Below, piece by piece: positions 79 through 22,669 of a stretch of DNA of 24,712 bases (its first letter is position 1; every line of letters starts with the position of its first letter). A program made the position numbers and the translations under genes. The notes below the pieces were generated by a model that was not told the origin of the DNA, ran no database searches, and saw only the letters and a list, made by a program, of their open reading frames with translations. Source of the stretch: a virus; the IMG/VR virus record IMGVR_UViG_3300002350_000002, positions 1 through 24,712 of that record; one strand, written 5' to 3'.

Positions 79-420
79 ATGAACGATTTGATTTTAGAAT
101 GTCATGAGTACGCAGAGTTTCTTAAGCATATGCCAGAAGTCTTGAACAACGGCCATGCTTACATAATCGGAGTAAACTACAACCCAAAGTCTAATACCTT
201 TGTTGTAACCAGCTTCGAAGAAGAGTTTGATCATGGTTGGATACAAACAGTAGATGGCAAATATCCTGAGTATTTGCATTGCAGAATCTTAGACGGTTGC
301 CAAGCACTACACCAAATGCTTGAGGCAAGAGAGTTGGAGAATGAAGAGGCGTTAGGTATCGATGACTTCATTCATGAGAATGGCAATGCTATGCGTAAAC
401 CAAGTAGGTATGATCGCTAA
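79..420 (+). CDS. Hypothetical acidic protein, 113 aa
   Basis: I do not recognise this protein. It is acidic and soluble, with no membrane segment or signal, and has a basic tail (RKPSRYDR). An AAAGGGG ribosome site lies 6 nt before the ATG. Its TAA stop (418-420) is part of the left box of promoter-like element E1, so the gene ends exactly where the next transcription unit begins. Confidence 0.75.
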   Translation: MNDLILECHEYAEFLKHMPEVLNNGHAYIIGVNYNPKSNTFVVTSFEEEFDHGWIQTVDGKYPEYLHCRILDGCQALHQMLEARELENEEALGIDDFIHENGNAMRKPSRYDR

Positions 421-444
421 ATTAAATGTGTGGTTAAACGAATA
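417..444 (+). promoter_or_regulatory. Promoter-like element E1
   Basis: Left box CTAAATTA (one mismatch to the consensus CTAAATAA), 14 nt, right box CGAATA. It precedes the three-gene unit 468-899. The TAA inside the left box is the stop codon of the upstream gene. Confidence 0.75.
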
Positions 445-467
445 GAACTTTACAAGGAGAATGTAAC

Positions 468-620
468 ATGAGCAGGACTATCAGATTTGTATTGGTAAAC
501 ACCCCCTTTGAACGCAGAGGGGAAACTCCAAGGGGCATGGTGGTATTCAAGAGCAAGAAGAAGTCTCCCAAAGGTGGTAGACAGGGCGAAAAACTAAAAC
601 TTAGCAGGGAGGTAATGTAA
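468..620 (+). CDS. Small basic protein, 50 aa
   Basis: The ATG at 468 follows AAGGAGA by 7 nt. The protein starts MSRTIRFVLVNTPFERRGE and has a Lys/Arg/Gly-rich C-terminal half (around KSKKKSPKGGRQG), a composition that fits nucleic-acid binding or a disordered peptide. It is the first gene after E1. Its stop shares one base with the next start (TAATG), which implies translational coupling. Function unknown. Confidence 0.6.
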   Translation: MSRTIRFVLVNTPFERRGETPRGMVVFKSKKKSPKGGRQGEKLKLSREVM

Positions 621-814
621 TGCTTATTAATGTAACCAAAGAAGAAAAACGATTGATTGAACATGCTTTGATCATACTAAGCTTAGATAAACAAGATGGC
701 CCATTCTATAAAGAATCAGACATCAAAGAATTGTGGATTAAACTCCACTTTGGTAAGCATGAACTTGAACCAGTACCAGAATTTTTTACTTTGGAGGAAA
801 GTTACAATGATTAG
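620..814 (+). CDS. Hypothetical protein, 64 aa
   Basis: An acidic, probably helical protein with no recognised family. It begins at the A of the preceding TAATG junction with an internal GGGAGG just upstream (608-613). It overlaps the next start at 807 by 8 nt and carries that gene's ribosome site (GGAGGAAA) in its last codons. Confidence 0.65.
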   Translation: MLINVTKEEKRLIEHALIILSLDKQDGPFYKESDIKELWIKLHFGKHELEPVPEFFTLEESYND

Positions 815-899
815 TCTTTATGTATTTCTCTGCTCAAATTATGAACTCTATCAAATGCAGATAGTATTTAACCTATTTGGAGATAAGATAGGATTTTAA
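807..899 (+). CDS. Micro-protein, 30 aa, partly hydrophobic
   Basis: The ATG at 807 is preceded by GGAGGAAA at about 8 nt, a better start than any upstream in-frame codon. The peptide is hydrophobic at its N-terminus (MISLYVFLC) and in the middle (IVFNLFG). It could be a small membrane-associated peptide, or merely a short leader. It is the last gene of the E1 unit. Confidence 0.45.
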   Translation: MISLYVFLCSNYELYQMQIVFNLFGDKIGF

Positions 900-1079
900 A
901 ATGTGTTAAACATATCCCCCTGCAAGACGATTTTACACATGGGGTTAAAAACCTGTCAAGAGAATTCTTCAGAGATTTCGAAATTGGTTTCACACTTTTC
1001 CAATGAACAAAAAGTGTATTATCAACACTATCAAAATCAAAAATTATACTTTGTTATACCATTTATTTTAAAAATTTTT
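900..1079 (+). other. Gene-poor, hairpin-containing 3' region before E2
   Basis: An 8-bp perfect inverted repeat ACACTTTT / AAAAGTGT lies at 992-999 and 1010-1017. A palindrome ATTTCGAAAT lies at 975-984, and the region ends in an A/T tract (TTTTAAAAATTTTT) just before E2. A weak alternative is a GTG-initiated 65-codon frame (903-1100) with a hydrophobic tail. It lacks a good ribosome site and runs through E2, so I prefer an untranslated 3' end or small RNA. Confidence 0.4.
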
Positions 1080-1107
1080 CTAAATAATTTGGCATCTTAA
1101 ACGAATA
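1080..1107 (+). promoter_or_regulatory. Promoter-like element E2
   Basis: Perfect boxes CTAAATAA and CGAATA, 14 nt apart. It follows an A/T tract that looks like a transcript end and precedes a gene-free cassette (1108-1214). Confidence 0.85.
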
Positions 1108-1214
1108 GATATACAGAGAGGTTGGGGATTAACCTAAAAATCCTCCTGCTAAAAAAGCGGGGATGGGCGGGGGCTGGACTTATAAAATAAATTTAAAATA
1201 TTTTTTTATTTTGG
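1108..1214 (+). ncRNA. Candidate small RNA cassette between E2 and E3
   Basis: There is no credible start codon with a ribosome site. Three hairpins can be drawn. AGGTT/AACCT (1119-1123 / 1131-1135) has a 7-nt loop. A second stem (1140-1150 / 1156-1164) has nine pairs, two single-base bulges and an A5 loop. The third is an A/T terminator-like stem AAAATAAA / TTTATTTT ending at about 1212. The block starts right after a promoter-like element and ends in T-rich sequence right before the next, which fits a short untranslated transcript. Confidence 0.45.
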
Positions 1215-21020: not shown

Positions 21021-21055
21021 CCAAGTTTTATTGTGTCAACAATGGGGTATTTATA

Positions 21056-21184
21056 ATGGAAGACTGTAAAAAATGGTATACTTGTTCTTACTGTGCATTT
21101 AAATTCTACTGGGAAGGTTTAGAAGATCCAGAACAATGCCCAAAATGTAGATGTGAAAAAATTATTTTAATAAAAGAAAAATAA
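21056..21184 (+). CDS. Zinc-ribbon micro-protein, 42 aa
   Basis: The ATG at 21056 follows GGGG about 10 nt upstream. CSYC (C10, C13) and CPKC (C28, C31) form a rubredoxin/zinc-ribbon knuckle spaced like short RNA-polymerase-type ribbons. It is the third zinc protein in this unit after 18580 and 20775. Confidence 0.65.
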   Translation: MEDCKKWYTCSYCAFKFYWEGLEDPEQCPKCRCEKIILIKEK

Positions 21185-21212
21185 AATTTTATAAAAACTT
21201 TAGGGAGCATAA

Positions 21213-22169
21213 ATGACAATCAACAGAAGAATATTTTATGCTTGCCAAGCAGTTGGAATTGGTGACAAAGACGGTGCAAATTTTACTGTTGCTCATGGTG
21301 TTCAGAGCGTTGGAATAAACACACAGTTTAACTTAGAACAAATTTTTGAAGTTGGTATGATTTCAATTTATGAAAATGTTGAAAATGTTCCTGATGTTGA
21401 AGTAACTTTAGAAAAAGTATTAGACGGAAGGCCACTTCTTTACGCTTTAGCAACAGCGAGTGCTGCTGGAACTACCTTATCAGCAAAATCAGTAGCACAA
21501 TGCTCTGTAGCGTTAGCTATTTTTGATGACACATCTGTAGCTGCAACTGGTACAGCAAAAGCTGGTTGTGTAATGAAAAGTGGTGTTGTAAGCCAAATAA
21601 CATATAAAATAGCAGTTGAAGGAAATGCAACAGAATCTATAACCATTGTTGGAAATCATAAGATTTGGACAAATGCTTTAAGCCCATCAAATGGAGAATG
21701 GTACATAGATAATCTTCCGGCAACAAATGTTCCAGATGATGAACCAGATTTAACCGTACAAAGAAGACAGCATGTTAACATTGGTGCTTCAAAAATACCA
21801 AATTGCATACCAGCAATATCATCGTTTCAATCAATGTCTGTTAGTGCAAATATAACTAGAGAAAAAATACTTGAGCTTGGAAGCAAAGTTCCATATTTTA
21901 GATATGCAAAATTTCCAGTAGAAGTAACAGCAGAATTTGAAATTATAGCAAAAAAGGGTGATCAGATAGGCGTTGTTGAAGATGCCAATAATCTTACAGA
22001 TGAAGAAATAAAATTGGTTTTCTTAAATGGAACAATAATAGACCTTGGAAAGAAGAATAAGTTGCAATCTGCAAATTATCAGGGTGGCGGTACAGATGGT
22101 GGAAATGCAACGATAACATATAGTTTTAAAACATTTAACGATTTTACCGTAACAGATCCAGCAACATGA
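21213..22169 (+). CDS. Probable tail-tube / virion structural protein, 318 aa
   Basis: No signal or membrane segment. The sequence is rich in Ala, Val, Thr and Asn with alternating beta-like strands and ends DFTVTDPAT, matching the composition of major virion proteins. An opening with VQSVGINTQFNLEQIFEVG and the phrase ENVPDVEVTLEKVLDGRPLL is reminiscent of tail-tube proteins I know from large phages; this is recognition by eye, not a search. TTAGGGAGC precedes the ATG. Major capsid is an alternative, but there is no scaffold or protease beside it. Confidence 0.55.
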   Translation: MTINRRIFYACQAVGIGDKDGANFTVAHGVQSVGINTQFNLEQIFEVGMISIYENVENVPDVEVTLEKVLDGRPLLYALATASAAGTTLSAKSVAQCSVALAIFDDTSVAATGTAKAGCVMKSGVVSQITYKIAVEGNATESITIVGNHKIWTNALSPSNGEWYIDNLPATNVPDDEPDLTVQRRQHVNIGASKIPNCIPAISSFQSMSVSANITREKILELGSKVPYFRYAKFPVEVTAEFEIIAKKGDQIGVVEDANNLTDEEIKLVFLNGTIIDLGKKNKLQSANYQGGGTDGGNATITYSFKTFNDFTVTDPAT

Positions 22170-22381
22170 ATAATATTGAGCAAAAACAAATTAAAACTTT
22201 GGAAGATTTCAATCTTGAATTGCAATTTCATTTTACATTGCAATATGAAAGAATCAAAAAGCTTGAAGAAGCCATAAAAACTCATCAAGAAGAAATGGAA
22301 AACCATTGGTTGTATGCTGGTATAGATAAAAGGCAAGTTCCAGATTGGGATACCAATAAAAAACTTTGGGATTGTTTGTAA
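22166..22381 (+). CDS. Coiled-coil protein after the structural gene, 71 aa
   Basis: A 4-bp ATGA overlap couples it to the tail-tube-like gene. Charged helix (LQYERIKKLEEAIKTHQEEM) followed by a Trp-rich C-terminus. It may be a tail assembly or chaperone partner by position; no family is recognised. Confidence 0.65.
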   Translation: MNNIEQKQIKTLEDFNLELQFHFTLQYERIKKLEEAIKTHQEEMENHWLYAGIDKRQVPDWDTNKKLWDCL

Positions 22382-22399
22382 TCATATGGGTAAACAGAC

Positions 22400-22546
22400 A
22401 TGGATACAGATGATTCATATATAATCATATTTACAAACGAAATGCTAAAGTCTATTGGTATAGACACAAATCAAGATGACATTGATGTAAAGATAGTGGT
22501 TGAAAACGGAACTATTAAAGTATTGAGAAAAGAAAATGTTGTTTGA
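22400..22546 (+). CDS. SpoVT/AbrB-like mini-protein, 48 aa
   Basis: Residues 8-43 (IIIFTNEMLKSIGIDTNQ, then DDIDVKIVVENGTIKVLRK) align by eye with the half-domain of AbrB/MazE swapped-hairpin DNA-binding proteins (pattern: strand, LxxLGI, DxVxVxVxxGxIxVR). If so it would act as a dimer on DNA, as a regulator or antitoxin. The ribosome site is weak, so the gene is tentative. It overlaps the next gene by 11 nt. Confidence 0.5.
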   Translation: MDTDDSYIIIFTNEMLKSIGIDTNQDDIDVKIVVENGTIKVLRKENVV

Positions 22547-22655
22547 TAACTACATTTGTGCTTTTTTTCAATATGTATGTTACGCAATAGTATATTTGCT
22601 TATAATGAAATTAATAAAAGATATATTAAATGAGGATTCCGATAAATTTTTTTGA
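22536..22655 (+). CDS. Membrane micro-protein, 39 aa
   Basis: The ATG at 22536 lies in the end of the previous gene. One hydrophobic span (CAFFQYVCYAIVYLLIM, about 8-24) is followed by a charged tail. It overlaps E20, whose boxes run over its last codons. Could be the toxin-like partner of the AbrB-like gene, but that is speculation from adjacency and hydrophobicity. Confidence 0.4.
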   Translation: MLFDNYICAFFQYVCYAIVYLLIMKLIKDILNEDSDKFF

Positions 22656-22669
22656 GTGTTAAACGAATA
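22642..22669 (+). promoter_or_regulatory. Promoter-like element E20
   Basis: ATAAATTT, 14 nt, CGAATA: the most diverged left box. It drives the 22710 gene, which has CCAAGGAGA 29-36 nt downstream of CGAATA. Confidence 0.65.

Follow-up and report, generated by a model that had tools for sequence, protein, structure and literature searches.

In the cascades of Bacillus phage SPO1 (gp28) and T4 (gp55), which involve other promoter sequences and other hosts than those considered here, a phage sigma factor serves one particular class of phage genes, and among cellular factors sigma 28 (FliA) has a promoter consensus in the register TAAA-N17-CGA, with CGATAA as its -10 box. The closest described case is Salmonella phage 7-11, whose sigma factor gp47 has a region 4 and acts on the host polymerase at eight bipartite promoters of late genes, GTAAtg-(16)-aCTA, with positive feedback proposed on the sigma gene itself (PMC8948821). 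In phage phiEco32 the sigma factor gp36 has no region-4 homology and uses a single-element promoter, tAATGTAtA (PMC8948821). Promoter positions are conserved between the two phages but promoter sequences are not, the sigma factors were acquired independently and no consensus is common to their promoters, and the authors predict further phages with hybrids or other sigma/promoter pairs (PMC8948821). Here we analyse the first 24,712 bases (the left end, hereafter the window) of the 111,606-base phage record IMG/VR IMGVR_UViG_3300002350_000002, in which a 28-bp element with the core TAAAT-N16-CGAAT is repeated along the early arm. Sequence comparison makes it very likely that these elements are the promoters of a phage-encoded two-domain sigma factor, which we call sigma A.

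The phage family to which the window belongs agrees with the prediction just mentioned (PMC8948821). It resembles 7-11 in having a phage sigma factor with a region 4 and bipartite promoters, and differs in having about 31 promoters on the early arm as against eight late-gene promoters; moreover, the sigma factors of 7-11 and phiEco32 are unrelated in origin, whereas those described here are homologous and have kept the spacing and the -10 box while the -35 box changed (PMC8948821). With phiEco32 gp36, sigma A shares the redirection of host polymerase by a phage sigma factor, which for sigma A is predicted (PMC8948821). Between gp47 and sigma A the resemblance is distant (BLASTP E 1.1), and a profile comparison aligned 65 columns, in region 2 only, at E 4.9e-4 and 32% probability; a tblastn search with sigma A of a phage collection that included 7-11 gave one match at E 0.4, in the tail fibre gene of another phage. 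What appears to be new, judging from the sequences, is how large the early regulon is and that, throughout it, the -35 box alone has switched between homologous sigma factors. Among the titles listed on phage sigma factors, planctomycete phages, DUF1501 phages and the co-evolution or rewiring of sigma factors and promoters, none is of this system.

The element array in the window

A first-pass annotation of the window had reported 20 plus-strand copies of the element (E1-E20), all with TAAAT and CGAAT and at one fixed spacing, and this was confirmed: between 418 and 22643 the plus strand has 20 occurrences of TAAAT-N16-CGAAT, and the distance from the T to the C is fixed at 21 nt in all 20 copies, while each of the other offsets from -40 to +60 occurs 1 to 4 times on that strand. 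Eleven of the 20 copies have the left box CTAAATAA unaltered, as had been stated. The right box had been given as CGAATA, which holds for 19 copies and fails at 2511, where it reads CGAATG. The number of copies was likewise correct for the plus strand, but one further copy had been overlooked on the minus strand (4111-4086), where it stands back to back with the plus-strand copy at 4136. The resulting total of 21 compares with a mean of 0.15 and a maximum of 2 in 100 dinucleotide shuffles. CGAAT by itself occurs 29 times on the plus strand of the window, also without the left box, so the pairing of the two boxes is specific, as the annotation had held. A search beyond the window found zero exact copies in the remainder of the record and arrays in related records. 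When the copies are aligned they share an AT-rich flank directly upstream, CTAAATAA, a variable spacer with a preferred T, aaACGAATA and a TA-rich stretch.

The elements are positioned as would suit promoters of the genes behind them. With distances measured between the last base of CGAAT and the start codon, 17 of the 21 copies lie 20-80 nt ahead of an open reading frame (ORF) of 35 codons or more that has a Shine-Dalgarno-like stretch, as compared with 22% of 2000 random plus-strand positions, which upholds the earlier view that most copies precede units with a ribosome site. The median distance is 42 nt for the 20 copies with such an ORF within 450 nt. This wider criterion (20/21 copies) is weak because 85% of the random positions also satisfy it; the minus-strand copy has no qualifying ORF within that distance. 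The suggestion that several elements follow hairpins or T tracts was not supported as far as terminators go, since in positions 1-20000 of the window there was no enrichment of terminator-like sites (8 found, 9.9 expected). Sigma-70 consensus sites in the same interval were below expectation (61 and 81.6, respectively), and an Rfam scan of the window returned one tRNA only.

A sigma factor gene beside the array in related phages

The annotation had proposed looking for a co-varying sigma gene, and such a gene was found outside the window, in relatives that carry the same elements; its region 4 tracks the -35 box. In a scan of viral contigs with a longer form of the pattern (80 listed of 119 stretches, 76 of them with a single copy), one contig had eight exact copies adjoining a 162-aa ORF with weak matches to sigma regions 2 and 4. 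The sigma A gene was present in 8 of the 11 records first examined and missing from the window's record, G009 and G010. E1-E20 recur without a changed letter in two relatives, G003 (88 kb) and G004 (49 kb), which extend leftward with 11 further copies in the same orientation; the array opens with a copy 67 nt ahead of the sigma A gene. As window coordinates correspond to those of G003 minus 9013, the gene would end about 4.3 kb to the left of the window's edge, and it is from these relatives, whose elements are letter-identical, that we infer a sigma gene for the window's phage, whose record stops short of that point.

Sigma A is a protein of 164 aa with regions 2 and 4 only. The NCBIfam model TIGR02937 (sigma70-ECF) scored 46 bits against a cut-off of 42.9 for the gene at L136:4264-4758 and was matched at E<=0.1 by 16/16 members of the sigma A family; Sigma70_r2 was matched by 15/16 members at the same threshold, with a best value of 3.5e-8. 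When the family profile was compared with PDB sequences, FliA was the best match (1.3e-9). The AlphaFold model consists of two confident helical domains (ten-residue means of 79-91 for residues 11-70 and 83-91 for residues 101-160) and a loose linker (means under 50 for residues 76-98). The top 17 Foldseek matches to this model were sigma factors (best E 2.2e-3), and VIA-align gave a best Z of 8.3 over 76 residues at 3.5 A, to region 2 of SigG1, a value that is middling for helical folds. These sequence matches and the model mark sigma A as a two-domain factor of the sigma-70 family with the layout of the extracytoplasmic function (ECF) or group 4 factors, which is predicted to bind core polymerase and to initiate transcription. 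A helix-turn-helix protein encoded in the window at 15714-15986 was also considered as a sigma factor and rejected, its region-4 matches being sub-threshold and placed among those to other helix-turn-helix families, with no region-2 match.

Next to sigma A and divergent from it lies the gene of a second protein, sigma B (L136:2288-2875, minus strand, and homologs; 195 aa; Sigma70_r2 31.7 bits). Sigma B is perhaps a late sigma factor; the T4-like late motif TATAAATA showed no excess on the late arm by a raw count made without a shuffle control.

Ahead of its ribosome site, the leader of the sigma A gene has a hairpin that counts 7 pairs or more and has a loop of the ACUUC or CUUUU type (for example L136:4215-4240, L138:8590-8616). 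In eight distinct hand-aligned sequences, which do not include those of G023 and G025, 53 of 56 pairs are standard and several changes are two-sided. Folding z-scores for five leaders range from -2.3 to +0.8, the optimum for G011 lacks the hairpin, and the G017 leader seems to break it. A TTGACA-N17-TAATAT site stands upstream of the G011 sigma A gene, in a stretch with 5 such sites against 3.8 expected, and similar weak sigma-70 sites are found upstream of sigma A in L178, L136 and L163, with none in L183; these sites carry no weight as evidence.

Two -35 sequences among sister phages

We assembled the phage family by searches with the terminase and sigma B, and a profile search placed the sigma A gene next to the terminase module in some of its members. 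In records with a diverged sigma A, de novo dyad counts revealed TGAAT-N16-CGAAT in place of TAAAT-N16-CGAAT. There are 1-31 TAAAT copies per record in 14 records (G001-G008, G011, G023-G027) and 5-28 TGAAT copies per record in eight (G012, G014, G015, G018-G022), and in all 22, some of which are near-copies of one another (e.g. G003/G004, G024-G027, G019/G022), the opposite type occurs 0 or 1 times on the array's strand. A single TGAAT copy lies outside the array in G000, and likewise in G003. Mixed counts come from two records without a sigma gene, G009 (9 TAAAT and 2 TGAAT) and G010 (3 TAAAT and 1 TGAAT). Four records were left unclassed: G013 (one TGAAT, 2.0 kb past the gene), G016 and G017 (less than 0.6 kb past the gene, no copy) and G032 (sigma gene truncated where the contig stops, no copy). 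Five records without sigma A (G028, G030, G031, G033 and G034) are also without an array, with 0-1 copy each, and G029, which has one weak match to the sigma A profile (E 6e-7), has neither an array nor a copy.

The switch is seen in front of orthologous genes. For 26 ORFs behind G003 elements we recorded whether the orthologs had an element within 100 nt, the search covering 40 kb of the 142-kb G019, 17 kb of the 31 kb in each of G012 and G020, and 18.5 kb of the 25-kb G011. TGAAT was found within 100 nt of 11/16 orthologs in G019 (at 302-398 nt in 3 more; no TAAAT), 8/15 in G012 (at 175-415 nt in 4 more; one TAAAT) and 9/12 in G020 (at 295-398 nt in 2 more; no TAAAT), whereas in G011 it was TAAAT that stood within 100 nt of 8/11 orthologs (at 267-274 nt in 2 more; no TGAAT). 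At 450 nt the totals are therefore 14/16, 12/15 (with one TAAAT) and 11/12 for TGAAT, and 10/11 for TAAAT. The distance from element to start is often kept to 1-2 nt between orthologs (60/62, 49/49 and 21/21 nt). In one orthologous-looking promoter pair, from G001 and G019, the -35 region differs and 15 of 16 spacer bases are the same, and the -10 box is identical between the two classes.

The sigma factors differ in the corresponding place. The recognition helix of region 4 reads GSA[HF]G in the TGAAT-class sigmas (6 aligned) and [IV]S[QK] at the same position in those of the TAAAT class (7 aligned); the helix is SQGSAFGLH in G019 and SEGRISQIW in G003. Region 4 of G011 is 48-52% identical to the G003 type as against 27-30% to the TGAAT class, and that of G020 is 55-64% identical to the other five TGAAT-class sigmas. 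Region 2 does not follow class, with G025 (TAAAT) being 41% identical to G020 (TGAAT) and 24% to G003. In these comparisons the promoter sequence co-varies with the phage sigma factor.

The tree of the sigma factors has one label change (support 97/96), but the six-protein backbone tree requires two because G011 joins the TGAAT phages. With labelled rows only, a single TGAAT clade on the backbone is rejected (p-AU 0.0108); in this tree the fork of G011 and the TGAAT phages has support 89/99 and the starred branches alone force one change, whereas with unlabelled rows included they force two. The TerL-only tree requires two changes, of which the starred branches force one. Many of the tree rows are near-copies, and an earlier test of TGAAT monophyly (p 0.0006) was dropped because unlabelled rows had forced its result. 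The G011 portal is 89% identical to that of G012 vs 73% to that of G004, while its sigma A is 29% identical to that of G012 vs 43% to that of G004. G011 thus has a backbone nearer the TGAAT phages, a sigma A nearer the window's type and TAAAT elements, and is best read, on these identities and trees, as an exchange of the sigma/promoter block between backbones, with few independent events.

Sigma A also varies within the TGAAT class. The terminases of G012, G019 and G020 are 99-100% identical and their sigma A proteins only 40-47%, which suggests that sigma A diverges, or is replaced, unusually fast.

Interpretation and alternative explanations

Sequence comparison provides the elements, the sigma gene adjoining the array in relatives and the co-variation of the -35 box with region 4. 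The last two of these point to the phage's own sigma factor rather than to a host sigma factor, so that the annotation's suggestion of a dedicated promoter system served by one or the other is supported with the phage factor favoured. In the mechanism that we propose, the phage would produce sigma A early, and the elements would serve as -35/-10 promoters for the host's core RNA polymerase with sigma A attached, with TAAAT(AA) as the -35 box bound by region 4 and CGAATA as the -10 box bound by region 2. This would switch on the approximately 31 early-arm promoters, the genes under which encode small, mostly uncharacterised proteins, and in the window's clade the gene of sigma A would itself be among the targets. 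Polymerase binding, the start sites, the timing and the autoregulation all belong to this proposed mechanism.

Several results weigh against this reading. The evidence that the elements are promoters is comparative throughout. No sigma gene was found in the window or in its own record with Pfam regions 4 and 2, tblastn and the family profile; for sigma A of the window's clade (L136:4264-4758 included), matches to Pfam regions 2 and 4 fall below cut-off, and Foldseek gave no match to its model under E 0.001. Some orthologs have their elements only at 175-415 nt, and others are element-free within 450 nt (2/16 in G019, 2/15 in G012, 1/12 in G020 and 1/11 in G011). In the distant TAAAT records G023 and G025, region 4 is just slightly nearer to that of the TAAAT class (23-34% identity) than to that of the TGAAT class (14-27%). 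Because the sigma tree has a single label change, the co-variation rests on one or two events. Lastly, an exact element precedes the sigma gene in 4/16 records (G001, G003, G005 and G006) and one with a single mismatch in 2/16 (G019 and G021), but none does so in the other 10/16, G011 included, so autoregulation is not general.

The elements could instead be read by a FliA-type alternative sigma factor of the host, borrowed by the phage. In favour of this, the 21-nt register of TAAA and CGA is also that of the sigma-28 consensus, and FliA ranks first among PDB sequences for sigma A itself. The -10 box is CGAATA here and CGATAA for FliA, sigma A does not reach the FliA_WhiG cut-off (21.5 vs 189.6 bits), and no region-3 domain is seen in the 164-aa model, which has only the low-confidence residues 76-98 between its domains. 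The host is probably a planctomycete, because relatives of the window's DUF1501 protein (28-73% identity) are encoded at 23 loci, each in a record titled as a planctomycete or a planctomycete genus. In ten planctomycete genomes, drawn from those holding these relatives, the element was not enriched (74 matches vs 76 in the reversed control), though the host itself is not identified. As the array starts at a phage sigma gene and the -35 box follows region 4 of the phage's own sigma across the sister phages, we regard a host factor as very unlikely.

We would give even less credence to the elements being operators for a phage repressor or anti-terminator, in the manner of the mycobacteriophage stoperators, which like these elements are many oriented copies in short intergenic gaps. 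Operators would leave unexplained why two boxes should have the spacing of -35 and -10 boxes, why 17 of the 21 copies should lie 20-80 nt before start codons with an AT-rich flank upstream, and why one of the boxes should change together with a sigma region-4 helix; nor does the sigma-70 scan described above offer another class of promoters. Sigma B is encoded beside sigma A and, in its case, Sigma70_r2 is above the Pfam cut-off, but a region-4 match was looked for in it and none was found, so it should not read a -35 box, and its relationships run opposite to the element type: sigma B of G011 (TAAAT) is 82, 83 and 73% identical to those of the TGAAT records G012, G019 and G018, and 70% identical to that of G004. 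That sigma B reads the elements is therefore the least credible of these explanations, and promoters read by sigma A remain our preferred account.

Building on that account, we think it probable, with less assurance than for the promoters themselves, that one freshwater phage lineage keeps two mutually exclusive -35 dialects, TAAAT or TGAAT, and that in each of them almost every copy, in a regulon of at most about 30 promoters, matches the region-4 helix of the respective phage's own sigma factor. The rewriting of the regulon would have touched chiefly a single -35 base and its flank, with many genes, the spacing and the -10 box kept, and sigma factor and promoters could move as a block between backbones, as in G011, and could insulate co-infecting relatives from one another. 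To our knowledge, a change of specificity in a factor and dozens of its sites has usually been studied with few sites or with engineered factors. Sister phages with orthologous genes here offer two versions of one regulon, in which region-4 recognition is directly testable, and the system opens the questions of how a regulon crosses between specificities and whether the dialects keep co-infecting phages apart. A probably planctomycete phage group, whose terminase has only distant relatives (15 of 50,697 phage records, the best with 27% identity over 67% of the protein), also gains a regulatory system.

Genes behind the individual elements

All of the elements described here are on the plus strand unless stated otherwise. 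E1 (417..444) lies 24 nt ahead of a 50-aa ORF at 468, whose G019 and G020 orthologs are preceded by TGAAT at 23 nt. E2 (1080..1107) is in tandem with E3 (1215..1242) and E3 with E4, and for both the nearest ribosome-site ORF is at 1475; the stretch from E2 to E4 (window:1081-1405) has no ribosome-site ORF ahead of the next element, and E2 and E3 may be tandem promoters or drivers of short RNAs, although the E2-E3 stretch folds no better than shuffled sequence. E4 (1405..1432) is 43 nt ahead of the 46-aa ORF at 1475, and E5 (1612..1639) is 22 nt ahead of an 88-aa ORF at 1661; in G012, G019 and G020 their orthologs have TGAAT at 40 nt and 22-24 nt, respectively. In the same three records TGAAT is found only far off, at 295-302 nt, for the 115-aa ORF at 1979, 24 nt behind E6 (1928..1955), and at 62 nt for the DUF932 gene at 2597, 60 nt behind E7 (2510..2537). 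The nearest ribosome-site ORF to E8 (3872..3899) is only at 4231, where a 112-aa ORF begins 69 nt behind E9 (4135..4162); orthologs of this ORF in G012, G019 and G020 have TGAAT at 51-54 nt. The minus-strand 21st element (4085..4112) is divergent from E9, and a divergent pair like that at window 4086-4161 is found in these three records too, as TGAAT.

E10 (5049..5076) lies 49 nt ahead of a 65-aa ORF at 5125, and TGAAT stands at 49 nt in G012 and G020. For the 155-aa ORF at 5994, 40 nt behind E11 (5927..5954), the orthologs lack a near element, with TGAAT at 377 nt in G019 and none in G012 and G020, and for the 111-aa ORF at 6961, 29 nt behind E12 (6905..6932), TGAAT occurs only at 395-398 nt. 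E13 (8325..8352) is 21 nt ahead of a 109-aa ORF at 8373, as is TGAAT in G012 and G020. The ortholog of the 123-aa ORF at 8949, 39 nt behind E14 (8883..8910), has no element in G019 and TGAAT at 175 nt in G012, and that of the 120-aa ORF at 10188, 51 nt behind E15 (10110..10137), has TGAAT at 73 nt in G019 and TAAAT at 51 nt in G012. E16 (11654..11681) begins where a tRNA-Met gene has its 3' end (window:11579-11681 for the two together), 76 nt ahead of a 51-aa ORF at 11757. E17 (13753..13780) is 22 nt ahead of a 67-aa ORF at 13802 (TGAAT at 21 nt in G019), and E18 (15954..15981) falls within the end of the ORF at 15714-15986, 60 nt ahead of a start at 16041. E19 (18513..18540) lies 40 nt ahead of a 132-aa ORF at 18580, whose G019 ortholog (44% identity) has no element, and E20 (22642..22669) lies 41 nt ahead of a 95-aa ORF at 22710, with TGAAT at the same distance in G019.

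Other features of the phage group

At window:23095-24599 a CsrA-like gene is followed by the DUF1501 gene, both above the Pfam cut-off. Two neighbouring small ORFs at window:7437-7863, MNDQFKEKKEKLKGML and MNDQFREKKEKLKGML, are similar and have the appearance of a tandem duplication. ORFs at L130:2455-4455 and L130:12305-14296 have what by eye are intein-like interruptions, one of them in a RecA-like protein. Near the terminase, AAGG recurs every 18 and 27 nt in L167, L173, L174, L176, L179, L180, L185, L186, L201, L214, L215 and L219, and these strong short-period repeats are possibly collagen-like. The same 26-bp element is present at both ends of the 141.8-kb G019 record (G019:94 and G019:141776), which suggests a complete circular or terminally redundant genome.

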